Origin: a virus | Virus record (IMG/VR): IMGVR_UViG_3300044491_002865 | Location: 1-33,295 of that record | DNA: 33,295 nucleotides | Strand: one strand, 5' to 3' | Shown: positions 14,576 through 31,239 of the stretch, piece by piece | How positions within the stretch are numbered: the first letter of the stretch is position 1 | Layout: each line of letters opens with the position of its first letter | The notes under the pieces: model-generated | The model's input: only the letters and a program-made list of their open reading frames with translations | Databases searched by the model: none | Told to the model about the DNA's origin: nothing | Program-made: the position numbers and the translations under genes

Positions 14576-17500
14576 ATGCCAATTCAAACTACCCAGCCTA
14601 AGAACACCTACGTAAGAAAGGTAATAGTTGGTACACCCATAAGAAAAGTTACTTCGGGTTCACTATCAATTAATAATCTTGCTGGGGTCACTATTAACAA
14701 TGCGGTTGAAAATGATCTTCTTCAGTATGACTCGGCATCAGCTAGTTTTGTTAATAGGCAGGAGCTCCAACGTCTTCAGATTGATCAGATCACTCTTGAC
14801 AGTGATACTATATCCCTTACAAATAATCAACTTAATATTAGCGGTAGTGTTGATGTAACAGGCAATCTTGGTCTATCGGGTATTGGATCGGCAAATGTCT
14901 TTAGGCAGTCTAATCTTGGAGCCTTTAATGATTCTGACCTAACCACAAAACTATATGTGGATAATGAGGTTGATAAAGTAAAGCATGTCATCTTTAAGAC
15001 TGATGATAACTTTACAGATTCTATTAATATCTATGACGCCGAAACATTGAGAATTATTGGTGGCAATTCTATTAGTACTTCGGCCACTAAAATTGGATCA
15101 GAATATAGACTTGTACTTGATGTTGATTCAACAGGAGTTACGCCAGGTCAATATGGTTCAGGAGCTCAGGTACCAGTCTTAACCATAAATGATCAGGGCC
15201 AAGTTACGGCCATCAATACGGTTGCAGTTGCTGGTGTTACGAATCTGGAATATGATTCATCTGATAATAGTGGTGTTATCACCATATCCACTGCTGATGG
15301 CCAAACCTTTTCTTCGTCAGTTACTCTAAATCCTTTTTCCACAAATGATCTAAAGGAAAGTGATAACCTTTACTATACAAGGACCAGATTTGATTCTGCC
15401 CTAGGAGATGCTACTTCTATATCTACCATTAGAGGTATGATTAGTACTTCGGGTGACCTACAGTATAATGCTAATACTGGTGTAATTTCAGTAGACATTC
15501 AACAGGTCTATACTTCAGATGACTTTGACTCCGATCTGGATGATGCGATCGCCAATAGCGTTAACATTCATTGGTATCCCGATTCTAATTACTTCGATCT
15601 TAATGTAACTGGTGTAGATTCGGGAACATATGGTTCTACTACACAGATTCCAACATTTACAGTTGACAAGTATGGACGTTTGTATGACATTGATACGGTT
15701 GCTGTAGCTGGTGTAGATTCTACCAGCTGGCTATCGGGTACAAATACCTTTAGAATTAATACTGCTGACGGTCAGTTCTATGATACAGTATTCGATTCTT
15801 TTGGCACCGACATAAGATTAAAAGACAATGTTAACCTAACCCTAGGAAACGTTGATGGATTTGATGTAGATCTTTACCATGACGGTACAAATTTTATTGC
15901 AAAAAATAATGCCTCGGGTAACATAGAAGTATTATCTGATACCCAAAGATTTTTAACTCGGTCGGGTAATACGTTATTTGACGCAGCCGAAATCGGTAAT
16001 GGTGTAAGATTATTTTATAATTCAATAGAGCGACTTCAGACTACCGATAGTGGCCTTAATGTAACGGGTAATATATTACCTGATGTTGATTCTTCTTACG
16101 ATCTAGGCTCATCAAATCGTAAATGGAAAGATCTATATCTTTCTGGGCAATCAATATACCTTGGCAATTTAATATTAAAAGATTCCGCTGGTGGACTTGC
16201 CATCAAAAATTCAAACGGTGATGCGGTTGATCTGGTTGCCAAGCATGCTAGATTTGATTCTGCATTTATTTCCCAACTATCGGTAGATAGTCTTAATGTA
16301 TCTCAGCTGCACATTGATTCGTCTTTTGTAAATAACTTTAATATAGTTTATATGGAAGCTAATACTGCAGAGATACAACAATTAGCCGTTGATTCTATTT
16401 CTGCTCAAACACTAAATGTTATAACAGGTGATATTGATCAATTCACTAGCGACTCATCATTTATCCAACAACTAAATGTTGTTTCTGGAGATATCGATAC
16501 CCTTACATCTACTAATGCCATAATTGATTCTATATACGCAGGTCAGTTAAATGTTGCTATTGGTGATATCGATACGTTTACTTCATCCAACGCCATAATT
16601 GATTCTGCTCTTATATCAAATCTTAATGTTTTAGTAAGCGATATAGACACTGCAATACTGGGGCAGGTTACTATTGATTCTGCCGCAATTACTAACTTGT
16701 CGGCCGATACATTAGATATTACAACGGTTCTTATTGATTCAGCCACAATAACTAATATAGCCGCCACAACCGTAAATATTGATTCCGCAACAGTTAATGC
16801 AATAGCAATAGGCAATGCTAATGTAAATAATGCAGAAATTGATTCTGCCTTCATATCAACCATCAGTAGTGTTTCGGGTGATATTGATTCGGCATCTATC
16901 ACTAATTTAGCGGTAGTTACAGCCAACATTAATACGGCCGGCATTAATGCGGTTGATATTACTACGGCCTCTATTGATTCGGCCACAATAACTAATCTCG
17001 CAGCAACAACTGCAACCATAGATTCGGCTACTGTAGATACTTTGGCGTCTAGTGCCATCAATGCAGCCAATGCAGATATTGATTCGGCCTTCATATCAAA
17101 CCTCAATGTTATAACAGGTGATATAGACACCGCAACACTTGGTCTCGTAACTGCTGATTCTGCGACAATAACCAATCTTGCGGCTTCGGCCTCTATAACT
17201 AATACTCTTACGTCTGACTCTGCATCCATAACAAATCTTGCTACTTCAACTGGTATTGTAGGACAGTTAACATCAGACTCTGCCTTTGTTACCCAATTAA
17301 ATGCTAATAATAGTCACATAGATGATCTAAGCGCAGATAGTATACATACAACCCAATTGAATGCGTCTATGGCGCATATAGACGCTCTAACAGCCGATTC
17401 AAGTAGCATTACTACCTTAGCAACGACTACTGGTATAGTCAATCAACTTACATCTGTATCGGCATCGATCAATCAAATTGCATCAGACTCGGCAGCAATT

Positions 17501-20500
17501 GCACAAATATCTTCTGCAAAATTACTTACTGATTCTATCGAAGCCGGCAGATCAAGTCTTGGATATATTGAATTAGATGCAGCTAGTTATTCAGACCTTA
17601 CACCACCATCATTAGATGAGGGGGCCATATGGTATAACTCCGGGCCCGATGCTTTGGTCTATAGATCTTCAACTAGTAGTGCAGTTAAGATAGGTCAAGA
17701 AGAAGTAACAAGGGTCTTCAATAATTCTGGTAGTCAAATTGATAAGGGCAAGGCCGTATATGTTACGGGTGCATCAAATGACTTTCCAACTGTAGCCCTG
17801 GCAAGAGCCAATAGCCTTGGTACAGTCTATAAGACTTTGGGTCTAACAAAAGATGATATTCCGGCAAGTCAATATGGTCTGGTAATTAACAGAGGTTTAG
17901 TCGGTGGATTGGATACCCAATCCTTCTCCGTGGGTGATGTAGTACACGTATCGGTTGATTCCGCGGGTGAATTAATTTCAAGTAATCCAGTCTATCCTAA
18001 CTATGCAGTTGAAATAGGTACCGTATTAGTTTCTCAGGCCCCAAATGTTGGTATAGGCGGATGTATTCAGGTTTCTATTACAAAAGAGATTGTTGAGACT
18101 CTTCGGGTAGCTGGTGATGGTAGAATCGATGCTGACCTAACAATTGGTGGTAACCTAAACGTACTAGGTACCGAAACCCGAACGGCCGTATCAAATCTTA
18201 ATGTTGCAGATACATTTATCTACCTAGGCGCAGGTGATACGATAGGCGCCGGCAATACAAACTTTAATGGTACTGGTGACCAAAACGCAACATTCACTGG
18301 TCATTATAAGGGTGATAGTGACGAGACCTTTAGAGTACGTATTAGTGCCGTAGGTGGTGATACAATTGAATGGGCTTTAGACAGTTGGGGAGCAGGGACT
18401 CTACCATTTGATTCAGCCGCAGGTCCAACTACATGGAATCTTACAAATGATGGATTAATTGCTCCTTTAAATTATGGTATTTCTATAGACTTTGATGCCG
18501 CCACTGGGCATGATCTTAATGACAGTTGGCATGGATCTGCATCTCCGGTTAATGTTCAGATAGGTCTGGCCGGTAACTATAACGAGCCCGACGATATATA
18601 TCGCCATGCAGGTGTCTTTAGGGATATATCGGATGGTACCTGGAAATTCTTTGATAACTATACTCCAGAACCATCGGGCAATATTAACACGGCACATGCT
18701 ACTTTTTCTTATGCGGACCTACGAGCCAAAGATATAACGGGAACCACAATTGAAGCATCAGTAGGCTTTACGGGCACCTTGACCGGTACAGCATCCGATA
18801 TTTCAAATCACACTACTACGAATCTGGCTGAAGGTTCTAATCTCTATTATACATCTACTAGGGCCAACACTGATTTTGATACTAGACTTGGTACCAAATC
18901 AACAACAAACCTGTCTGAAGGTACCAACCTTTACTATACATCTACTAGGGCCAACACTGACTTTGATACTAGGTTAGCCACTAAGTCAACTACTGATTTA
19001 TCTGAAGGTTCTAATCTTTATTATACTCAGGGTAGATTTGATACTGCATTTACTGCCAAGTCAACTACTGATTTATCTGAAGGTTCTAATCTTTATTATA
19101 CTACTACTAGAGCCAACACCGACTTCGATACTAGACTTGGCACCAAATCAACAACAGATGTTGCGGAAGGTACCAACCTTTACTATACAAAGGTCAGAAC
19201 AGATTCTGACATTAATCAAGGATTTGCCGACAGAACTACAGATAACCTAACTGAAGGTTCTAATCTCTATTATACATCCACTAGAGCAAACACTGACTTC
19301 GATACCAGATTGGCCCTTAAATCAACAGATAATTTATCAGAAGGATCGACAAATCTTTACTATACAGATGCTCGTGCAGATTCGGACGCTAAGAATGCCA
19401 TAAGTGTTTCTGGTGATCTATCATATGATCCTTCTACGGGTATCATCAGTCTTGATGTAGAAGATGCATACACCAAGGCTAATTTCGATAGTGATTTAGG
19501 AACAGCCTCAACCTCAGACCTACCAGAAGGCACTAATCTCTACTATACTGATACCAGAGTAAGACAAGCAATTTCTGCTTCTGGTGATCTATCTTATGAT
19601 CAGGGAACTGGTAATTTTTCGATTGACGTTGAAGAAATCTATACTGCAGCAAACTTTGATTCGGACTTTGGAACGGCCATTCAAACTATTGATGGTAATT
19701 TAGTTCCAGCAATTAACGAGACATATGATTTAGGTGATTCAAACTATCGTTGGAAAGATTTGTATCTCTCTGGAAACACAATTGATATTGGTGGCACTCT
19801 TATATCCGTCGACTCACATGATGGTGGTGTAAGGTTCCACAATCCATCATTTGATAGAGTGGCCATGAGAGGCCTGGAAATTGATCTAGGTGGCACTGGT
19901 ACAAAAATTACTCTTAAGAAACACAGCACAAATGGTTTGTTACAGGTAGTTGATTCAGATGATACTCAACTAAAATATGACCTATCACAACAAACAACAG
20001 ATAGTTTGGGTGAAGGTTCTTTAAATCTTTACTATACAACAACTAGAGCTAATAGTGACATCGATGCTAGGTTGGTTGGTGGCACTGGCATTACAGTGGC
20101 GTCTGGTGATATTTCAATTACTAATACAGCGGTAACTGCTGGGGCATATGGCGATGCCTCTAATATACCAACATTTACGGTTAATGATCAAGGCCAATTG
20201 ACAGCTGCTGGTACAGTAGCAGTTGCGGGTGTATCATCTACAGCGTTTGATTCAGCATCAGGTGTAATGACAATTAACACGGCTGATGGCGGGGCATTTA
20301 ACACTATTATAGCCGACTCTGACTTTACAGTTAAGAGAGCCAGAGAAGCATTTAGTGCGGGCACTGGTGTTACATTGTCTAATGGTGTCATCTCAATTGA
20401 ACAGGATGTTGATAGTACCGGTACGTTTGAAGTAGATAAAGCTCTAGTTGATAAGTTAGAAGTTTCATCGGATAGTGAAGGTTCTTATCACATTGAGAAC

Positions 20501-21028
20501 AATGTTGTAATGAGAACAATTGCTCAGCATAGTGATAGCGCTGGTGGTAATCTAATTATTGACATTTATATGAGAACAGACTTTAAGACTGAATCCCACA
20601 GATATTATGAAAACGGATCCGCCAAGGGGTACTACCTGGCCTGGAAACAAGAAGATCTTCGGACTGCCCGTGAGTTCCAGTCACCTCATTTAGATCTTGT
20701 TCCGGGGCAGACCTACAGATTTTGGGATGAAGACTCATCAATGGTAACACATGATTTAAGATTCTTCTATGATGATGCAAGGTCTGGAACATATAATGAT
20801 TCTGACGTTGTTTACAATGCAACTGCTGCTGGTACTGCTGGATCCTATTCACAGATCTCAATCGATCAATACACACCAAGAACACTTGCATATCAATGTT
20901 TAAATCATCCATACATGGGTAACAGCTTTAACACAAACACTAATGCCGGTGGTAGAATGAAGGGTACATCAACTGGCATAGCAATTGATGGTAATATAGA
21001 AGCAACAATTGATGGTGGTACCTATTAG
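14576..21028 (+). CDS. giant repeat tail fibre with C-terminal cupredoxin-like domain
   Basis: 2150 aa. The N terminus (about 1-100) is an attachment region. Shaft modules of cyanophage type follow, including TKLYVDNEVDKVKHV, twice TVAVAGV, and WKDLYLSG twice (about 521 and 1726). Residues about 557-988 are a Ser/Asp/Ile/Ala-rich short repeat built on IDSATITNLAA. About 1040-1170 is a small beta module (KGKAVYVTGASNDFP, GDVVHVSVDSAGEL). Ten NLYYT motifs occur, eight of them clustered at about 1413-1660. Residues about 2003-2125 form a cupredoxin-like domain with His2059, Cys2108, His2111 and Met2114. No S74 chaperone is present. CGGAGAA precedes the ATG. It is the largest gene here and probably a long side or whisker fibre. 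Confidence 0.82.
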   Translation: MPIQTTQPKNTYVRKVIVGTPIRKVTSGSLSINNLAGVTINNAVENDLLQYDSASASFVNRQELQRLQIDQITLDSDTISLTNNQLNISGSVDVTGNLGLSGIGSANVFRQSNLGAFNDSDLTTKLYVDNEVDKVKHVIFKTDDNFTDSINIYDAETLRIIGGNSISTSATKIGSEYRLVLDVDSTGVTPGQYGSGAQVPVLTINDQGQVTAINTVAVAGVTNLEYDSSDNSGVITISTADGQTFSSSVTLNPFSTNDLKESDNLYYTRTRFDSALGDATSISTIRGMISTSGDLQYNANTGVISVDIQQVYTSDDFDSDLDDAIANSVNIHWYPDSNYFDLNVTGVDSGTYGSTTQIPTFTVDKYGRLYDIDTVAVAGVDSTSWLSGTNTFRINTADGQFYDTVFDSFGTDIRLKDNVNLTLGNVDGFDVDLYHDGTNFIAKNNASGNIEVLSDTQRFLTRSGNTLFDAAEIGNGVRLFYNSIERLQTTDSGLNVTGNILPDVDSSYDLGSSNRKWKDLYLSGQSIYLGNLILKDSAGGLAIKNSNGDAVDLVAKHARFDSAFISQLSVDSLNVSQLHIDSSFVNNFNIVYMEANTAEIQQLAVDSISAQTLNVITGDIDQFTSDSSFIQQLNVVSGDIDTLTSTNAIIDSIYAGQLNVAIGDIDTFTSSNAIIDSALISNLNVLVSDIDTAILGQVTIDSAAITNLSADTLDITTVLIDSATITNIAATTVNIDSATVNAIAIGNANVNNAEIDSAFISTISSVSGDIDSASITNLAVVTANINTAGINAVDITTASIDSATITNLAATTATIDSATVDTLASSAINAANADIDSAFISNLNVITGDIDTATLGLVTADSATITNLAASASITNTLTSDSASITNLATSTGIVGQLTSDSAFVTQLNANNSHIDDLSADSIHTTQLNASMAHIDALTADSSSITTLATTTGIVNQLTSVSASINQIASDSAAIAQISSAKLLTDSIEAGRSSLGYIELDAASYSDLTPPSLDEGAIWYNSGPDALVYRSSTSSAVKIGQEEVTRVFNNSGSQIDKGKAVYVTGASNDFPTVALARANSLGTVYKTLGLTKDDIPASQYGLVINRGLVGGLDTQSFSVGDVVHVSVDSAGELISSNPVYPNYAVEIGTVLVSQAPNVGIGGCIQVSITKEIVETLRVAGDGRIDADLTIGGNLNVLGTETRTAVSNLNVADTFIYLGAGDTIGAGNTNFNGTGDQNATFTGHYKGDSDETFRVRISAVGGDTIEWALDSWGAGTLPFDSAAGPTTWNLTNDGLIAPLNYGISIDFDAATGHDLNDSWHGSASPVNVQIGLAGNYNEPDDIYRHAGVFRDISDGTWKFFDNYTPEPSGNINTAHATFSYADLRAKDITGTTIEASVGFTGTLTGTASDISNHTTTNLAEGSNLYYTSTRANTDFDTRLGTKSTTNLSEGTNLYYTSTRANTDFDTRLATKSTTDLSEGSNLYYTQGRFDTAFTAKSTTDLSEGSNLYYTTTRANTDFDTRLGTKSTTDVAEGTNLYYTKVRTDSDINQGFADRTTDNLTEGSNLYYTSTRANTDFDTRLALKSTDNLSEGSTNLYYTDARADSDAKNAISVSGDLSYDPSTGIISLDVEDAYTKANFDSDLGTASTSDLPEGTNLYYTDTRVRQAISASGDLSYDQGTGNFSIDVEEIYTAANFDSDFGTAIQTIDGNLVPAINETYDLGDSNYRWKDLYLSGNTIDIGGTLISVDSHDGGVRFHNPSFDRVAMRGLEIDLGGTGTKITLKKHSTNGLLQVVDSDDTQLKYDLSQQTTDSLGEGSLNLYYTTTRANSDIDARLVGGTGITVASGDISITNTAVTAGAYGDASNIPTFTVNDQGQLTAAGTVAVAGVSSTAFDSASGVMTINTADGGAFNTIIADSDFTVKRAREAFSAGTGVTLSNGVISIEQDVDSTGTFEVDKALVDKLEVSSDSEGSYHIENNVVMRTIAQHSDSAGGNLIIDIYMRTDFKTESHRYYENGSAKGYYLAWKQEDLRTAREFQSPHLDLVPGQTYRFWDEDSSMVTHDLRFFYDDARSGTYNDSDVVYNATAAGTAGSYSQISIDQYTPRTLAYQCLNHPYMGNSFNTNTNAGGRMKGTSTGIAIDGNIEATIDGGTY
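16244..17539 (+). repeat. IDSATITNLAA-type short repeat region in the giant fibre
   Basis: Roughly residues 557-988 repeat a short unit of alternating hydrophobic and Ser/Thr/Asp/Asn residues (IDSATITNLAATT, IDSAFISNLNVITGDID). The regular pattern suggests a beta-helix or beta-solenoid shaft. DNA copies are diverged, though recurrent ATTGATTC and CTAATCTTGC words remain. The same composition leaves a long open frame on the opposite strand, which is a by-product. Confidence 0.7.
18812..19390 (+). repeat. tandem NLYYTSTRANTDFDTRL repeats (about 29 aa each)
   Basis: Seven consecutive copies of a unit of 25-30 residues (TTDLSEGSNLYYTxTRANTD then FDTRLGTKS), about 87 bases each. Nucleotide identity between several copies is high, for example TCTAATCTTTATTATACT. 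Three more diverged NLYYT copies lie at about 15360, 19540 and 20027 in the same gene. Such units are typical of cyanophage fibres. Confidence 0.8.
20582..20950 (+). other. cupredoxin-like domain (copy 1, divergent) in the giant fibre
   Basis: Residues about 2003-2125. The order is LVPGQTYRFWDEDSSMVTHD, a variable loop, then TLAYQCLNHPYMGNSF. Potential type-1 copper ligands are His2059, Cys2108, His2111 and Met2114. It is close to a widespread marine phage module whose members I recall only as uncharacterised. Copper binding is inferred from the residue pattern. Confidence 0.6.
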
Positions 21029-21092: not shown

Positions 21093-22301
21093 ATGGCAGC
21101 AAATATTAAGCTCAAGAGATCGGCTGTTATTGGCAAACAGCCACAACCAGTAGATCTAGACTATGGAGAACTAGCTCTTAATTATAGCGATGGGGTGCTT
21201 TACTATAAAAATGCATCCAATGCAGTATCCAGTATTTCTGGTGGTGGTGCCACTACAGATAGTGCTGCGCCAGTCTCTTCTTTGCGGGATGGTACTCTTT
21301 GGTGGGATGCCACTAACGGCAAGTTAAAGATTTACTATGTAGATGAAGATGCCCAGACTTCGCCCCAGACCATAAGTCTTACATCAAATGCTAGTGGCAA
21401 TCAAAATTATGAAATTACGGGATCTGATAGGGCCACAACCTTTACTGGTACAGCAGACCCTAATATCTATATTATTCAGGGTGACACACTACAAATTACT
21501 CAGAATAGTGACTTCACCCATCCTATGTATTTTGTTACTCAACTTAGTCTTTCCAATTCCTATGATGCCCAGTATAATGTTCCTGGAGTAACAAACCAGG
21601 GAGCTTATGGTGGTGTCGTTATATCACATCAATTTAATAGTGTCGGCACCTTTTATTACATTTGCTCATCACATCCACATATGGTTGGAGTTATTAATGT
21701 AGTTGCTGCTGATACGGCCGCCGCTCAATGGGTCGACGCATCTATAGCATCTGTAGGATATACTGGGTCGGCTGGTGCCATATTCCAAGGTGAAACAGCA
21801 CCTTCCAATCCTACAGATGGTCAAATTTGGTATGATAGTACTACCGGTAAGTCTTTTATTTACTATACAAACCCATCAACCGCACAATCACAATGGGTAT
21901 TGCAAGCAGACCCCACTGTAACTGATGGAGATACTGGTTATTCTGGATCAAGAGGATTTACCGGATCACAGGGTGTAATTTCTCCAAAGTTTGTGTCTAT
22001 TGAAAGTCCTACTTCTGGGCAGACCAAAACCCTAATGTATAACTTTAGTGCTACTACAGTTAGTGTCGTACGTGCTGGTATTTCTGGAGGTACTAGTGTT
22101 GCATATAGTGTTTATCATGATGCGGCAAGAAATGGCTCAGGTACTGTTATAGCAGCAGAAACTACAACCAATGCAACAAGTGGATCAACTCCAACAATTA
22201 TATCAGCTTCGGTACCTGCCGGTAGTTGGATATGGGTAGAGACCACCACTGTTACGGGCACAGTTAATGAATTTAATTTAAGTATAGAATTTACGGAGTA
22301 A
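21093..22301 (+). CDS. modular fibre/adhesin: WWD modules, cupredoxin-like insert, collagen-like hinge, beta head
   Basis: 402 aa. Residues 1-48 (IKLKRSAVIGKQP, DLDYGELALNYSDGVLYYKN) are a common phage fibre attachment leader. DGTLWWDATNGKLKIYY (66-82) and DGQIWYDSTTGKSFIYYTN (242-260) are two copies of one small module. The first is interrupted by a cupredoxin-like domain (about 95-206; His143, Cys191, His194, Met197) before its closing AAAQWVDA. Short collagen-like pieces follow ([20 protein letters not shown]), then a beta-sandwich head of about 110 residues. A late promoter lies at 21035, and TAGGAC precedes the ATG. It is likely an accessory tail or head fibre; its receptor is unknown. 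Confidence 0.75.
   Translation: MAANIKLKRSAVIGKQPQPVDLDYGELALNYSDGVLYYKNASNAVSSISGGGATTDSAAPVSSLRDGTLWWDATNGKLKIYYVDEDAQTSPQTISLTSNASGNQNYEITGSDRATTFTGTADPNIYIIQGDTLQITQNSDFTHPMYFVTQLSLSNSYDAQYNVPGVTNQGAYGGVVISHQFNSVGTFYYICSSHPHMVGVINVVAADTAAAQWVDASIASVGYTGSAGAIFQGETAPSNPTDGQIWYDSTTGKSFIYYTNPSTAQSQWVLQADPTVTDGDTGYSGSRGFTGSQGVISPKFVSIESPTSGQTKTLMYNFSATTVSVVRAGISGGTSVAYSVYHDAARNGSGTVIAAETTTNATSGSTPTIISASVPAGSWIWVETTTVTGTVNEFNLSIEFTE
21375..21710 (+). other. cupredoxin-like domain (copy 2) inserted in a WWD module
   Basis: Residues about 95-206 run YEITGSDR, IYIIQGDTLQI, DFTHPMYFVTQ, then VGTFYYICSSHPHMVGVINV. Potential ligands are His143, Cys191, His194 and Met197, in the canonical order. The flanks on either side complete one WWD module. 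Confidence 0.7.
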
Positions 22302-23649: not shown

Positions 23650-26600
23650 ATGACCATTGCTAATATAACTAGGGAAACCTCCCTTACCGATTCTGACTAT
23701 CTGGGTTTACCGGTTATGCATCATATTGCTGCTGATGGATTTTGGTACCACTATAAACCGTCAGATAAAGTAAATAACGCTACATTGGCTGGCAATGCAA
23801 TTGTACCGTATCAGTGGGATTCTGCACTACCAATTGGTTCGGGTTCATTGGCTTCCGGTGGTGGTATTGAACTTGATGGTACATTTGCCTTTATAGACGA
23901 AGAACACAATGGTTCAACTCTAAAATATCATGGTGGATGTATACAGCATATTGGCGCTGGAATAAATGATATTACCAACATTACAGAAAATAATGCTTTC
24001 TTTATGGCGCATATTGGTACATGGGGTGATGATGGACCCACCACGGGCGGTCTTTTAGAAGATGATGCATTTTACTGGGATAGGCTTTATCAAACTACCG
24101 CTGGTGGTGATTGGAACTTTTATCAATATCACAAACACTTGCCTTCAAACTATGCTCAGTTTGATGATGGACGTTTAGTATGGGATGCTGATGGATATAT
24201 AAGATCTGCAGATAAGCAGTACGGCTATATGATTACGATTAGGGCAACATCCGGTGGGGCTTCCTATAATGTCCCATTGGCTCGTATTCACACTCCTTCA
24301 ATTGGTGGGGCTCACAATTCTCACAATGATGTTACATTACCTTCAGTAGCAGGTGTAAACTATCTTGCAGGGGGTATTTTAAAGGGATCATCAAATAGAT
24401 TCCATGCATTCTATATGGACTCTTCATCTACTGCAGGTGAATGGAATGTATATTCTAGAACCTTTACTTCCTCATCTGGATCCTTTACTCCCCAGGTCAA
24501 CTATGGTTCATATGATCTAGCAACACCTACGTTCACTCCATATCCAGGAGGTGGAGCAGAGAGCGAAGGGGCTTTAAGTCAGTATCCATTAAGAGCATCC
24601 GCTGGACATACTTTTGGGTCTTATGTCTATTGGCCCACAATTATAAAGGCTCAACCCATAAATTTTGGTGACCTAGTCGTTACTTCAAATGGCGGTAATG
24701 TATATCAACTTAATGGTAATGATCGTCAGAATCCTGGGTCAGCTGGGGCTCTATTACTTGATGGTAACAATAACAATCCAACCGTAAGGATAAAGGTCGG
24801 AGATACCATAAGACTGGCATTTGCTAGTTCTGGTACAGCATCTACTCACCCCCTTTATATAAAAACCACCACCCAGTCTAATACCAACGATCAGGCTGTG
24901 GGTGTATCGGGCAATGGGACTCAATATATAACATTTACTCCTGAATCAGCAGGTACCTACTATTATGTCTGTGTTGTACACAATGGCATGTATGGTGTTA
25001 TTGAGGTTACGGATCTAGATGGTACATTTGACACCCAAATATGGAGAGTGACTGATGCCAATACCATTTCTCCTGGTACACTAGAACGTATTGATTTACC
25101 ATGGTACTATAAAGCAACCCCTGAAAGACCTGACGTGTTATTGACAAGTGTTGGATCAAAGATATACGTTGCTAGCTCCGGGTCATTAAGAGGCGGGGTT
25201 GATCTATTCAGCGCGCCTATTATTGATTCATCTGGAGATTTATACGATGAGGGACAAATTGTAACCAATACAATTGCTAATGATTTAAGAGTTCATGGGT
25301 TTAAGTATAATGCATCTAATACAAAGTTCTATGCATTGCTTAGTGGTACAAGTGGGGTTGGATCATATAGTGGTAAAGGTCTATACAGCTTTGATTTAGC
25401 GGGCGGATCATTTGAAGGATATGATCATTTAGATTATGATGTTTCTACTGGAACATATATTACTAAGGGGCCCAATACTTCGGGTCATATAATGTATAAC
25501 CATTCTGATGCTTCTATGACAAAGAAAACTACTATAGAACCAGAAGGTATTGCCCAAGGAACATCAATTTTACAATATCAGATTGCTTCGCCTCAATTTT
25601 ATAATAAGACGGAAGTAAATACAGGGTATGAAGAATACTACTTCCAGGGCATCTACCTATCAGATGGTCGTAAGGCTCTAGTGGGACAGATCAGGTCGAA
25701 TCCCCAAAATACAGGTCTGGGAGGAGATCTACTTCTTACAATTATTGATAATGAAAATAATGATATTAGTTACACCTACACGGCCGAGGGTGATGACTAC
25801 ATCACAGGTATTATTGAGGATGTTGAAAATAATCGAATAGTATTATCAGGATATGCTAAGGGTGAGCTTACAACCAAGGGCGCACAGGGTATACATGGAT
25901 GGGGTAGAAATTTAAAGGAGAATGCTGATTCTGCGGATCAAGCATTTACCGGAATATTCAAAAAAGATGATCATGGATTTAAGTTGGTTGGTAATGACCG
26001 AAGACAGAAAAAAGCATTCATAAGTAATTTTGATAAGGACTACAATTATATCAATAGTAAGATATTATCAGTGGGACCTGATTCTGATGTTATTGATACT
26101 GTTACACCATTAGCTAATAATAAAGATTATATTATTTCTGGCTGGACTAGAAATGCAACTTCGGATAAAGATGCATTTATGGCTAGATTAGATTCCGCTG
26201 AAAATGTTATTTGGTCAAAAAGATTTAACATTAGTAATGCATATAATGCATTTACTTCTCATGCAATTGTTGATAACAATGGCACCGAGAATATCGTAGG
26301 GTTTTTTACTAATGAATCTGGTGATGATTCAACCCAGTCTTATGGTGTGTTGACTGTCTTGAATACTTCAGGTAATATAACAGATAATGCAGTGACCGCA
26401 TATACTGAGGGTAATTTTTATCTCAATAAAATTAGACCTGGCAGACCAGGTAGTGGTGAATTTTTATTCGCAGGTTCAGATACTACGAGCAATTACAGAG
26501 CTCCAAGTTGGGGAATAGGAAATGTCAATTCTGCAAATCTAATTGACTATATAAGACACCACTCTTGGTCAACTACCGCTGTCGCAGATGCTCAGGCCTT

Positions 26601-28875
26601 TAACGTAATTGAAGCCGGTTATAATGATATTACTCTTAACCGGTACGATTCAGACAATCAAAGATATAAGATAATGGTTGCTGGGAAGCGAGAAGATACA
26701 TCATTGGCCGATGGTGCAGGCCAGGCGGTGATGCACACTTCCCGAGATCACAGATCCTTTGCGATCGCAGGTAGTTATGATTTAAGAGATAGTGGGGGCA
26801 CTTGGGTTTCGGATACTAGATGGGAAAGGCAATATCTTTCTCCAACAACGGGTGCCTATTTAGAGGAAATAACCACCATTTTATCAGAAGATTCTTCCAG
26901 AAGAGAATGGTGGTATAATGATATTGATGAACATCCAAATCCAGGAAATCATAGAGTAATTGCCCTGGCTACAGGACTTAATTTGGATTCGGCTGCAGAG
27001 CAAAGCTTTGGAATGCAGATGAGAGCTGGGACCGCTGTTCTGGGTATTAATGATTCCGATGGATCACTATACTTCTCTAATTCATTGGGACACATGGGTG
27101 AAGACTATATTAATAATGATATGGTTTGGGATGAAAAGGGTCTAAACTTTGTTTTTTGTGGTAGTTCTACATCACACTCATATGGTAGAGATGCCTTGAT
27201 GTTTAGACAGATGAAGGATGGTTTCGGGACCGGTGTATACCACACAAGTTACTCTACATCAAATGCCTACTATTATGATTCAAATAATTTATCAGCAGTA
27301 AACGAAACGATTTTAAATAGTAATTCTACAGGGATTCAGATTACTAATAAGACATCAACAACTGTTGATAATATTACACTACCCGCCTCTACTATTAGTA
27401 ATGATTATTACCATACAGAGTATAATGGTTCTTATGGTGCAAATGGATTGTTCACGGGATTTTTGGCATATGTAGATCTGGCCGATCTACAAACGTTCCT
27501 TAACTCAGATACATATCAGGAAGAAGTTGATAGAGGGCTAAGAGTTCATGCCGCTAACAGTATCTTTAATATATTCCAACTTTCCACTGTAGGTGATGCT
27601 ACGGCAGATGATGGAAATATATTTGCCTACGATGTCCTCAAGTCATCAGACGGTGAGTACTATTATACGGGTGGTCAGATTTCTGGAAATATGTCATTTA
27701 CTAATACTGGCCTATCCGGTGTCTATGATTATTGGTTGGGGCAATTTAATATTGATACTAATGAATGGAGATTCTGGCAAAATGGTTCTTTTGAAGATGA
27801 AGAAATCTATGCTTTAGAGGAACTTAGAGGATCAACTCCTTCTAACCTTGTTGAGGATCCTAATGCAACCAATAATGGTGCAGTAAATGGAACCGTAACA
27901 TGGATACCTACAACCGCTGGTACCTATTATTATCAATGTGGCAATCATAGCTCAATGGTAGGACAAATCACGGTAACAGATGTACAGGGGTCACCATCGA
28001 CCATTAACCTTAATGCAGGTGCAGTATTTACAGACGCCCTTTATTGGTCTATTTCTGGAACCGACAGATCAACAACTCATAGTTCTGCACTGAATCCTAC
28101 TATTACGATTGACACCGGAGACACTCTTAATATATCGGTATCAACCACAGGAAGCAATCATCCATTTTATATTCAGGTGACTCCGGGGATTTCTCCAAAG
28201 GCTGGTAACATAGCATTTGCTGGTAGGACAACTGGCACCCTAGCAGGTGCATCTTCCTTGATTGGAGGATATGATTTATTCTTAGGTATTTTTAATCCGG
28301 GTACATGGAGCTCTGAATATTATGTAAATGGTTCGGGCTTTAATGATAAGGTAATGAACCTTCATGATATTAATGACACAATTCCTAATACTCTAGCTCT
28401 TGTGTATACCTCATTTGGTTCTGTAAATGGTTCGAATGTATTCGGTTCTGAAGACATTGGTATCATAACCTTTAATTACGCTACAGATACCTGGTCTACA
28501 GGATTTAACACAGGATCTGAGACATCAGAAGAAATCGAACAGAATGGTAGCCCATCGACCAGATTGTCTGATGGTAGAATAGGTGTTGTGTGTAATACAG
28601 CAGGGGCTTTTGCTGATGATGCTAATACATTTGGTCTTAAAGATATGGGACTTGGTATATTTGATTTTGATAGTGATGGCAATGGTAACTATAGTGGATG
28701 GTCTAAATACCAAGTAGGTTCAGGATCATCAGACTTTTCTTTTAGTGTAGATAATAATGGTTCTACATTCCTAGTAACAGGATATTCAGAAGCAACATGG
28801 GATAGAGCAGTACATGGTGTTTTTGTAGAATTCGACCCCGAAAAAGGGTACTTAGCGAAATCCGCAGGGAGTTAA
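23650..28875 (+). CDS. giant beta-propeller protein with two cupredoxin-like inserts
   Basis: 1741 aa. Most of the chain repeats units of about 55-65 residues with a hydrophobic strand plus Gly (ALVGQIRSNP, RIVLSGYAKG, DYIISGWTRN, FLFAGSDTT, YYYTGGQISG, IAFAGRTTG, ALVYTSFGS, FLVTGYSEA), a D-rich turn and a F/I-x-x-F/Y-D strand, typical of propellers of Kelch/SBBP type. Two cupredoxin-like domains interrupt it: about 341-456 (His400, Cys441, His444, Met447) and about 1401-1520 (Cys1430, His1433, Met1436, then His1504, order reversed). No signal peptide, membrane segment or protease motif is seen. CAGGAA lies before the ATG at 23650. Probably a carbohydrate- or surface-binding virion adhesin. 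Confidence 0.7.
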   Translation: MTIANITRETSLTDSDYLGLPVMHHIAADGFWYHYKPSDKVNNATLAGNAIVPYQWDSALPIGSGSLASGGGIELDGTFAFIDEEHNGSTLKYHGGCIQHIGAGINDITNITENNAFFMAHIGTWGDDGPTTGGLLEDDAFYWDRLYQTTAGGDWNFYQYHKHLPSNYAQFDDGRLVWDADGYIRSADKQYGYMITIRATSGGASYNVPLARIHTPSIGGAHNSHNDVTLPSVAGVNYLAGGILKGSSNRFHAFYMDSSSTAGEWNVYSRTFTSSSGSFTPQVNYGSYDLATPTFTPYPGGGAESEGALSQYPLRASAGHTFGSYVYWPTIIKAQPINFGDLVVTSNGGNVYQLNGNDRQNPGSAGALLLDGNNNNPTVRIKVGDTIRLAFASSGTASTHPLYIKTTTQSNTNDQAVGVSGNGTQYITFTPESAGTYYYVCVVHNGMYGVIEVTDLDGTFDTQIWRVTDANTISPGTLERIDLPWYYKATPERPDVLLTSVGSKIYVASSGSLRGGVDLFSAPIIDSSGDLYDEGQIVTNTIANDLRVHGFKYNASNTKFYALLSGTSGVGSYSGKGLYSFDLAGGSFEGYDHLDYDVSTGTYITKGPNTSGHIMYNHSDASMTKKTTIEPEGIAQGTSILQYQIASPQFYNKTEVNTGYEEYYFQGIYLSDGRKALVGQIRSNPQNTGLGGDLLLTIIDNENNDISYTYTAEGDDYITGIIEDVENNRIVLSGYAKGELTTKGAQGIHGWGRNLKENADSADQAFTGIFKKDDHGFKLVGNDRRQKKAFISNFDKDYNYINSKILSVGPDSDVIDTVTPLANNKDYIISGWTRNATSDKDAFMARLDSAENVIWSKRFNISNAYNAFTSHAIVDNNGTENIVGFFTNESGDDSTQSYGVLTVLNTSGNITDNAVTAYTEGNFYLNKIRPGRPGSGEFLFAGSDTTSNYRAPSWGIGNVNSANLIDYIRHHSWSTTAVADAQAFNVIEAGYNDITLNRYDSDNQRYKIMVAGKREDTSLADGAGQAVMHTSRDHRSFAIAGSYDLRDSGGTWVSDTRWERQYLSPTTGAYLEEITTILSEDSSRREWWYNDIDEHPNPGNHRVIALATGLNLDSAAEQSFGMQMRAGTAVLGINDSDGSLYFSNSLGHMGEDYINNDMVWDEKGLNFVFCGSSTSHSYGRDALMFRQMKDGFGTGVYHTSYSTSNAYYYDSNNLSAVNETILNSNSTGIQITNKTSTTVDNITLPASTISNDYYHTEYNGSYGANGLFTGFLAYVDLADLQTFLNSDTYQEEVDRGLRVHAANSIFNIFQLSTVGDATADDGNIFAYDVLKSSDGEYYYTGGQISGNMSFTNTGLSGVYDYWLGQFNIDTNEWRFWQNGSFEDEEIYALEELRGSTPSNLVEDPNATNNGAVNGTVTWIPTTAGTYYYQCGNHSSMVGQITVTDVQGSPSTINLNAGAVFTDALYWSISGTDRSTTHSSALNPTITIDTGDTLNISVSTTGSNHPFYIQVTPGISPKAGNIAFAGRTTGTLAGASSLIGGYDLFLGIFNPGTWSSEYYVNGSGFNDKVMNLHDINDTIPNTLALVYTSFGSVNGSNVFGSEDIGIITFNYATDTWSTGFNTGSETSEEIEQNGSPSTRLSDGRIGVVCNTAGAFADDANTFGLKDMGLGIFDFDSDGNGNYSGWSKYQVGSGSSDFSFSVDNNGSTFLVTGYSEATWDRAVHGVFVEFDPEKGYLAKSAGS
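24670..25017 (+). other. cupredoxin-like domain (copy 3, canonical order)
   Basis: Residues about 341-456 run VYQLNGNDR, VRIKVGDTIRLAF, STHPLYIKTT, YITFTPESAGTYYYVC, then VVHNGMYGVIEV. Potential ligands are His400, Cys441, His444 and Met447. The flanks (VYWPTIIKAQPINFGD and FDTQIWRVTDAN) read as one propeller unit when the domain is removed. Confidence 0.7.
27853..28200 (+). other. cupredoxin-like domain (copy 4) with halves in reversed order
   Basis: Residues about 1402-1517. The C-terminal half comes first (GTVTWIPTTAGTYYYQC then GNHSSMVGQITV; Cys1430, His1433, Met1436). The N-terminal half follows (YWSISGTDR, PTITIDTGDTLNISV, SNHPFYIQVTPG; His1504). Swapping the halves back gives a complete domain resembling copy 3, so it reads as a circular permutation. 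Confidence 0.65.
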
Positions 28876-28878
28876 TAA

Positions 28879-31239
28879 ATGGCGGCCTTAAACTTTCCAA
28901 TTAATCCAAGTCATAATGATACGTATTCAGCGAATGGTACTTCATACCTATATGACTCGGATACTACATCATGGGTAGCCGATCAATTTATAGGTTATAC
29001 AGGATCCCAAGGTTTTACGGGATCTAAAGGGGCTGGCTTTACAGGGTCTCGAGGTAATCTTGGATTTAGTGGGTCGGTGGGCTTTACGGGTTCCATAGGA
29101 TTTACTGGGTCGCGAGGTTTTACCGGATCTGCTGCAGCTCAGGGTCTAAAGTATGACGCCGACATAAGTACCACAACCCTTAACACTATATCAACGGGGC
29201 GTATAGGTTGGAACAATGCTACTCTAACATCTGCAACTCAGGTTGGTATACATAGAACCTCTTCAGATTCACAAGATAATATTAACTATCTAAACACATT
29301 TGATGATTATGGCGGCACGACCGACCGTGGTTATCTAATGATAAGATCTGCGGATGCTAACTCTTCTGATTTCCTACTCTACAGGGTTACGGGTAATAGT
29401 TCCTTAAATAATAGTGTAATGATATTTGATACCACCTACCTTGGAGGTACAGCCACCCCTATTACGGGTGAAGGTATGATTATTACCTATATTCACAGAG
29501 GTAATTCTGGATTTGTTGGGTCTCAAGGTAATATAGGATTCTCAGGATCAAGGGGATTTACTGGGTCGCAAGGTGTCATAGGATTTACGGGTTCTCAAGG
29601 TGATCAAGGTGTCATAGGATTTACGGGTTCTCAAGGAGATCAAGGTGTAGCTGGTGTAAGTGGTACTGGGGGTGGATTGTTTGGCCTTGTAGGTGAAAAA
29701 TCCACTACTCCTGGGGCGGGCGACTACCTTTCATTTGGTAGTGGGGCTACAGCAAATATATATGGTGTAAAAATCCCAGAAGTAATGATACTTGATAGTA
29801 TTACCGTTACTACTCAAAACGTGGTAACCTCTAATCTACAGATTTCAATCCGCAGGGGTGGAGTTGCAATTGCAACGGCTACGGTTGTTTTTGGCGATAA
29901 TGACACCAGAGTATCTAATATAGGTGTTTCAATAAACGCTGATGATGAAATATCAATACGCTGCGATGCCCCAGCAACTGGATCAGGGGCTGTCATTGCA
30001 ACGGCTTGGTTTGCGACTAATGGGGCAAAGGGTTATACAGGTTCTCAGGGTATACAGGGTATACAAGGCGCTACGGGTTCCCAGGGACCCATAGGTTATA
30101 CTGGATCGCAAGGTATACAAGGTATTCAGGGTGATGTTGGATTTACAGGATCTAAGGGAAATACAGGTTCCCAGGGACCCATAGGTTATACTGGATCGCA
30201 GGGTATACAAGGTCCTACGGGTATTCAGGGGCCTATAGGCTATACTGGATCTAAGGGTATTCAGGGTATACAAGGTATTCAGGGTATACAAGGACCCACG
30301 GGCCCACAAGGGCCTATAGGTTATACGGGATCTAAGGGAAATACAGGTTCTCAGGGACCCATAGGTTATACAGGATCACGAGGATCAGACGGTACATCAA
30401 TTGCTATTCAAGGAACTGTTGCAACAGTAGGCAATTTACCATCAACTGGGAATACTGCTGGCGATGCATATATTGTTACGGCAAGTGGTAATCTTCATGT
30501 ATGGACTGGATCAGCATGGACTGATGCAGGGCAGTTTGCTGGCTATACAGGATCTCAGGGAAATACAGGTGCTACGGGTCCTGGGGGAGCTACGGGCCCT
30601 ACTGGCCCTCAGGGACCTATAGGATATACGGGATCTAAGGGAAATACAGGTAGCACGGGCCCTGGAGGCCCTGCAGGCCCTACTGGACCTCAGGGGCCTA
30701 TAGGATATACGGGATCCAAAGGAAATACAGGTAGCACTGGCCCTGGGGGATCTACTGGACCTCAGGGTCCTCGGGGTTATACAGGATCTAGGGGAAATAC
30801 TGGTGCTACGGGCCCTGCAGGTCCTGGGGGAGCTACTGGTCCTGGGGGAGCTACGGGCCCTGCGGGTCCTCAGGGACCTATAGGCTATACGGGATCCAAG
30901 GGAAATACAGGCAGCACTGGCCCTACTGGGCCTGGTGGCTCTCAGGGTCCTCGAGGTTATACTGGATCCAAGGGAAATACAGGTTCTACGGGCCCTGGAG
31001 GAGGCACTGGTCCTCAGGGTCCTCAAGGTTATACGGGATCTAAGGGAGATACAGGTCCTGGAGGCCCTGGAGGCCCTGCGGGTCCTGGAGGTTCTCAGGG
31101 CCCTCGAGGTTATACGGGATCCAAGGGAAATACAGGAACTACAGGAGCTACGGGCCCTGCGGGCCCTGCGGGTCCTGCTGGAGCATCAGGGTCAACGTCA
31201 GTTGAAAAGGCTGTTGCCTATGCTATTCTATTTGGATAA
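28879..31239 (+). CDS. collagen-like fibre protein with two interspersed beta domains
   Basis: 786 aa. The anchor leader [16 protein letters not shown] (1-16) is shared with the C1q-like gene. Gly-x-y stretches lie at about 39-86, 211-262, 385-504 and 555-771. They change from GFTGSxG units to Pro-rich [20 protein letters not shown] units. Between them are a beta domain (about 88-208), a second one (about 265-380: [20 protein letters not shown] ... [12 protein letters not shown]), and a small module at about 508-552 ([32 protein letters not shown]) common in phage collagen-like fibres. The chain ends [15 protein letters not shown] without a head domain. It probably makes a trimeric rod. AGGGAG precedes the ATG at 28879. 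Confidence 0.82.
29572..29643 (+). repeat. 36-base tandem repeat in the collagen-like gene
   Basis: Two adjacent 36-base copies (29572-29607 and 29608-29643) encode [12 protein letters not shown] twice and differ at a single base (GGT versus GGA codon). This is the freshest duplication seen in the gene and keeps the Gly-x-y register. Confidence 0.85.
30541..31191 (+). repeat. Pro-rich collagen-like repeat block
   Basis: Eight units, each starting GYTGSKG or a close variant, with lengths of 24, 27 or 36 residues, so always multiples of three. The DNA carries recurrent GGATCTAAGGGAAATACAGG and GGGCCCTG words and is richer in GC than its surroundings. Open frames in other frames and on the other strand here are by-products of the repeat. 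Confidence 0.8.

Follow-up and report, generated by a model that had tools for sequence, protein, structure and literature searches.

A cupredoxin domain lies in-frame within a WWD module of a tail-fibre-like viral protein and is absent from some homologues

The DNA examined is a stretch of 33,295 nt from IMGVR_UViG_3300044491_002865, a viral metagenomic contig, and is called the window below. The insert studied here is carried by a 402-aa protein (Table 1). This protein is related to tail fibres, since it matches PHROG tail families and lies in a fibre gene neighbourhood. The N-terminal domain recurs at the N-terminus of a 1084-aa fibre-like ORF in the distant locus L029. The C-terminal domain matches the Agrobacterium phage 7-7-1 tail fibre (9rkv) and the Pam1 capsid protein (7eel) in VIA with Z scores of 8.9 and 9.0, which are middling by the tool's own note. 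The window also has a baseplate wedge subunit gene (phrog_438, E 6e-58) with relatives mostly in cyanophages. The phage is marine and probably T4-like. A 786-aa ORF (28879-31239) has collagen-like repeats and matches phage tail fibre families. The 2150-aa ORF (14576-21028) contains internal LSEGSNLYYT-like repeats, and its product is probably a fibre shaft.

Table 1. Position of the 402-aa gene, its parts and the cupredoxin copies in the window.
Feature	Position (nt)	Strand	Remarks
Copy 1, divergent cupredoxin, C-terminal region of the 2150-aa protein	20612..20929	+	HMM 24.7 bits; C-x2-H-x2-M in the sequence
402-aa tail-fibre-like protein, host of the insert	21093..22301	+	ORF; 12 distinct family proteins; N-terminus matches PHROG tail-fibre families
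N-terminal domain, common to tail fibre families	21093..21254	+	phrog_17885, phrog_35830, phrog_1699
WWD module 1, first half (DGTLWWD...IYY), two beta strands	21288..21338	+	Residues 66-82; AF2 strands 69-72 and 77-83
IYY-to-QWV stretch of module 1, 129 aa	21339..21725	+	7 aa in empty homologues
Cupredoxin domain (copy 2)	21354..21716	+	Residues ~88-208; ligands H143, C191, H194, M197; Foldseek, VIA, Pfam
WWD module 1, last strand (QWVDA)	21726..21740	+	Residues 212-216; AF2 strand 211-215; follows IYY-DDGADSA in L009-L012
WWD module 2, continuous	21816..21902	+	Residues 242-270; AF2 strands 245-248, 253-259 and 266-272
C-terminal beta domain	21975..22298	+	Residues 295-402; VIA
Copy 3, canonical-order cupredoxin, 1741-aa protein	24676..25011	+	In 10/10 relatives looked at
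Copy 4, circularly permuted cupredoxin, 1741-aa protein	27832..28203	+	C-half, linker, N-half

The preliminary description placed two WWD modules in the 402-aa protein and described the second as unbroken at residues 242-270, and these coordinates are correct. It also described the first module as broken by about 112 residues of cupredoxin-like sequence. The break is there, and its measured length is 116 residues, after ...TSPQ and before AAAQWVDA. The distance from IYY to QWV is 129 residues in the window protein and 7 residues in homologues that lack the domain, a net difference of 122. In the AF2 model each WWD module has three strands, and the cupredoxin of module 1 occupies the turn that joins strand 2 to strand 3. 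The model is of moderate confidence, with a mean pLDDT of 61 and ten-residue blocks within the insert ranging from 42 to 79.

Several lines of evidence identify the insert (copy 2) as a cupredoxin. Searched alone, it matches Pfam PF00127 (Copper-bind) with an E-value of 0.0007 and 20.5 bits, which is 0.7 bits short of the gathering cut-off of 21.2 bits; the whole protein scores 17.3 bits. The 1741-aa protein scores 23.4 bits against the same family, and its best stretch is copy 3. The AF2 model of the insert has a Greek-key beta-sandwich fold, modelled at modest confidence, and retrieves the solved cupredoxin 5fc9 in Foldseek (E 2.6e-5). VIA aligns this model with 2dv6 (Z 10.8, rmsd 2.4, 101 residues), 5fc9 (Z 10.4, rmsd 2.1, 92 residues) and 1bxu (Z 9.4, rmsd 2.4, 88 residues). 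The insert resembles the plastocyanin/azurin-type cupredoxins of PF00127, cyanobacterial plastocyanin among them, in its modelled fold and in its H-C-H-M ligands, but differs in being embedded in a fibre-like protein and in its C-x2-H-x2-M spacing. We take this spacing to be the short loop of amicyanin. The Pfam score, the fold matches of the model and the existence of homologues with and without the insert together mean that the broken module is not a chance pattern. A cupredoxin domain is present in-frame inside WWD module 1.

The preliminary description proposed a check for phages that have the gene without the insert, and such phages were found in four IMG/VR contigs with all four neighbouring genes conserved. 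The first IMG/VR scan gave 12 relatives, comprising eight loci with the insert and four (L009-L012) without it. A later profile scan gave 24 loci, five of which match around module 2 only. The other 19 contigs, which include the first 12, contain this gene, 15 with the insert and 4 without. With the window included, this amounts to nine distinct proteins with the insert and three without. The empty proteins are 275 aa long, read IYY-DDGADSA-QWVDA, and align across the remainder of the protein. Relatives of the flanking 2150-, 323-, 122- and 1741-aa proteins occur in identical order in 19/19 contigs. Thus uninterrupted homologues exist at the same locus with the same neighbours (4 contigs, 3 distinct proteins), and the inserted unit also exists elsewhere, with 184 distinct domains collected from these and other protein contexts. 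Since four contigs lack it, the cupredoxin is dispensable for the persistence of the gene. Read by eye at the DNA level, the filled and empty junctions show neither an obvious target duplication nor a flank in common.

The number and direction of these changes were examined with trees. In a tree of 74 cupredoxin domains, the five insert rows long enough to be included form one clade (support 100/99), so a single origin is likely. The identity of the insert falls between the identities of the N-terminal and C-terminal parts of the protein in 6/6 comparisons among the window, L001, L006 and L008, as expected for an old, vertically inherited domain. Other modules are uninterrupted and the domain occurs in further settings, so a gain at some point is required. 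A loss may have followed in the L009-L012 lineage, and the trees and the AU test are compatible with more than one root. The insert would then have been gained before the family diverged, and L009-L012 would have lost it, either through an exact deletion or when an uninterrupted module replaced the filled one by recombination. In the flank tree with L029, the empty lineage groups with the insert-bearing L131 and L213 (89/93) and two changes are needed, one being sufficient in 2% of 200 bootstrap trees. L131, L213 and the empty lineage also have DDG in common on the left-hand side of the loop. However, L029 forms a very long branch in this tree, and the AU test does not reject the grouping of all insert-bearing rows (p 0.31). 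One change is enough in the flank tree without L029 and in the tree of three neighbouring genes. A clean deletion would also have to leave a loop like those of unrelated modules. The likeness of the empty loop DDGADSA to loops of unrelated uninterrupted modules, for example DDGDSA, speaks for the insertion. The loss is a possible but less likely alternative, and if it occurred the insertion itself would still be real and the empty homologues would be secondary.

The insert has the type-1 copper ligand set H-C-H-M in order, and H143, C191, H194 and M197 are kept in 9/9 distinct insert-bearing proteins. In the wider family of 184 distinct domains (172 viral, each covering 80 or more of the 106 model positions), the ligands are kept in 183/184 (H), 181/183 (C), 181/183 (H) and 180/182 (M) domains. 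In the set of 74 domains they are kept in 74/74, 74/74, 74/74 and 73/73. In a further set the first histidine is found in 71/77, and the six exceptions are half-matches of the permuted copy in which flanking sequence was aligned. This invariance is partly a result of how the domains were selected, because the collecting profile itself scores the C-x2-H-x2-M motif. The pattern of residues suggests that the insert would bind type-1 copper. Alternatively, the domain could be a spacer with a cupredoxin fold that no longer binds metal and keeps the motif for folding only. Many Ig-like decorations of phages require no metal, a few viral copies among the 184 deviate from the ligand set, and in the set of 74 one non-ligand tyrosine column is as invariant as the ligands (74/74). 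On the other hand, the four ligands are retained in nearly all of the 184 domains, whereas in the set of 74 a level above 85% is reached at just 14/106 positions, and they are retained in the permuted copy too, where they are drawn from swapped halves. A metal-free spacer is therefore unlikely.

The preliminary description allowed that QWV might belong to the cupredoxin rather than to the WWD module. A WWD pattern scan of IMG/VR, in which the 113 distinct matches listed are a sample and some are unrelated to the module, points the other way. Among these listed matches, 55 are uninterrupted modules with a QWV-like end 5-10 residues past the second strand; 54 of them lie outside this gene and one is an empty homologue of it. 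The insert is carried by four of the listed matches, every one from this gene. Of the remaining listed matches, 36 lack a second strand and 15 have no QWV-like ending within range, and three more of the 113 (L116, L149 and L211) were flagged by the regular expression but look uninterrupted by eye. No other domain was found in the same beta turn among the 113 listed distinct matches. In L029 the equivalent module is uninterrupted and ends in QFV (IYYDDGVSAQFV). The uninterrupted modules among the matches listed, together with the empty homologues, show that QWV is a strand of the WWD module. The idea of no insertion, in which QWV would belong to the cupredoxin and resemble module 2 by coincidence, found no supporting points and is refuted by the four contigs that read straight through without a cupredoxin and by the 54 listed modules outside the gene. 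An assembly artefact or chimera, conceivable for one metagenomic contig, has practically no likelihood since the arrangement recurs in 15 further contigs at 49-75% protein identity to the window.

The preliminary description went on to suggest a domain that moves between fibre genes as an in-frame unit. The in-frame insertion and the uninterrupted homologues in the same neighbourhood bear out one part of this suggestion. Repeated traffic is not supported: the inserts tested form a single clade, this gene's module 1 is the only one filled among the matches listed, and no donor was found. In the 74-domain tree copy 2 forms a clade apart from the other domains, including copy 3 of its own genome.

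An extra cupredoxin is present at residues ~358-462 of the upstream ORFs of L006 (1905 aa) and L008 (1812 aa). It was not detected in the 2150-aa protein of the window or in the L001 homologue. The upstream homologues of L009, L011 and L131 are truncated at the start and are uninformative on this point. This is a further case of presence and absence that fits mobility.

Copies 3 and 4 had been taken to show the same pattern as copy 2, and they do not. Both are cupredoxins of the 1741-aa ORF and neither lies in a WWD module. Their host is another kind of protein, both are present in 10/10 relatives (eight loci plus L131 and L213), and copy 4 is permuted. The order of copy 4 is identical in all ten, among them phages whose 402-aa gene belongs to the empty lineage. 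In its native order, copy 4 gives two half-matches to an HMM built from 47 canonical domains. When the halves are swapped in silico it gives one match of 95-108 bits, from model position 6-10 to 105 of 106, and the result is the same in 9/9 copy 4 sequences, six of them distinct. Copy 4 thus has both halves in swapped order in one ORF with all ligands kept, as in a circular permutation. AF2 gave no usable model of the copy 4 region (pLDDT 37). Among the collected domains, and by the criteria applied to them, the permuted order occurs only in the 1741-aa protein family.

Tandem arrays in other phages suggest how copy 4 could have arisen. In 11 ORFs (L057-L063, L065, L308, L313 and L320), cupredoxins stand in tandem pairs separated by fewer than 40 residues. 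Native copy 4 is collinear across the tandem-pair junction of L057 (43% over 106 residues, E 9e-24), likewise in L058 and L065, and not in one piece in L090. Against individual domains of these tandem proteins, swapped copy 4 aligns about equally well. The alignment to arrays shows the permutation rather than descent from an array, because any permuted domain must align in this way. Given the 11 tandem-pair ORFs, copy 4 could plausibly have come from a domain-length piece of an array that was taken up in a shifted register. When copy 4 is excised, its flanks align weakly across the cut with another stretch of the 1741-aa protein: a one-sequence search gives E 3e-5, with a gap of 4 residues close by, and a profile scores 8.3 bits.

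The domain also occurs in other phages and in bacterial records. In IMG/VR, 499/590 candidate stretches encode a relative of it. Among phage records, 29/50,697 match at E 1e-5, with duplicates counted separately, and 27 of these are Synechococcus or Prochlorococcus phages. In P-SSM2 the domain belongs to the 'tail spike' protein, where a Peptidase_S74 chaperone domain follows it close to the protein's end. In L218 (P-HM1) the domain is in a protein with a subtilase domain, and in L219 (S-H9-1) it is in a protein annotated as a subtilisin-like protease. The cupredoxin array of L065 was considered as lying within a subtilase as well and this was rejected, as Pfam finds only cupredoxin there. One phage member of the family, L084, matches the Prochlorothrix plastocyanin 1b3i (E 2.3e-4). 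Matches to this phage cupredoxin domain also come from the PHROG families phrog_27200, phrog_9158 and phrog_677 (the last a baseplate wedge tail fiber protein connector); there the host proteins and positions are others, and the entries give the domain no function. A genome scan confirmed the domain in 12/69 candidate loci, of which ten are marine Bacteroidetes/Flavobacteriaceae records (L245-L254). In these records the domain ends the ORF in 10/10, with ORFs of up to 1102 aa, some of them incomplete. In L250 it follows many Ig-like surface domains in a surface-type protein. These bacterial copies were also considered as a source, and none was identified as the specific donor of this insert.

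The tailed phages offer a close precedent. Ig-like domains on their structural proteins are dispensable, in-frame beta-sandwich units that are variably present on virion surface proteins. The insert is likewise a beta-sandwich unit in-frame and present or absent between relatives; it differs in being a cupredoxin, in its near-invariant metal ligands, and in lying inside the turn of a small module. The finding is a variant of known phage-fibre domain shuffling, and the copper-type domain and the permuted copy are unusual. Among the literature matches listed, no title dealt with phage-fibre cupredoxins or a naturally permuted cupredoxin.

We propose that the 402-aa protein consists of an N-terminal fibre domain, two three-stranded WWD modules and a C-terminal beta domain, and that a complete cupredoxin would have been inserted in-frame into the beta2-beta3 turn of module 1 in an ancestor, most likely once. 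The mechanism may have been illegitimate recombination. This site would let module 1 still pair its third strand, QWV, and the cupredoxin would project from the module as a side knob. The knob would be displayed on the virion, metal-stabilised if copper is bound, and by analogy with the phage Ig-like domains may have a surface role, probably in host adsorption. The identity of the domain (by model and sequence), its site, its presence and absence in the same gene neighbourhood, the one clade of the inserts tested and the conservation of the ligands are the established parts of this account. As a whole, a one-time insertion of a cupredoxin into a fibre module, giving a copper-type surface knob, is probable.

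In a bolder reading, the fibres of marine T4-like virions would carry several type-1 copper centres, among them the naturally permuted copy 4, and the copper-loaded knobs would help in docking to copper-uptake or redox proteins on the host surface. We consider this very unlikely at present. The iron-binding HxH tail fibres of T4 (gp37) and of Alteromonas phage R22Y are proposed to exploit host metal uptake (PMC11705849). Both cases would place metal ligands on phage tail fibres, but here they form a separate type-1-copper-like domain instead of an HxH motif in the fibre. A copper analogue of that iron 'Trojan horse' proposal is possible, and it would become the copper counterpart of that idea if the docking reading were true.

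The presence or absence of a whole folded domain in one beta turn of a single gene is a clean natural experiment on the gain of fibre domains. The permuted copy and the tandem arrays in other phages suggest a concrete natural route to circular permutation. The conserved ligands predict that many marine phages, cultured Prochlorococcus phages among them, may have copper in their fibre-like proteins.
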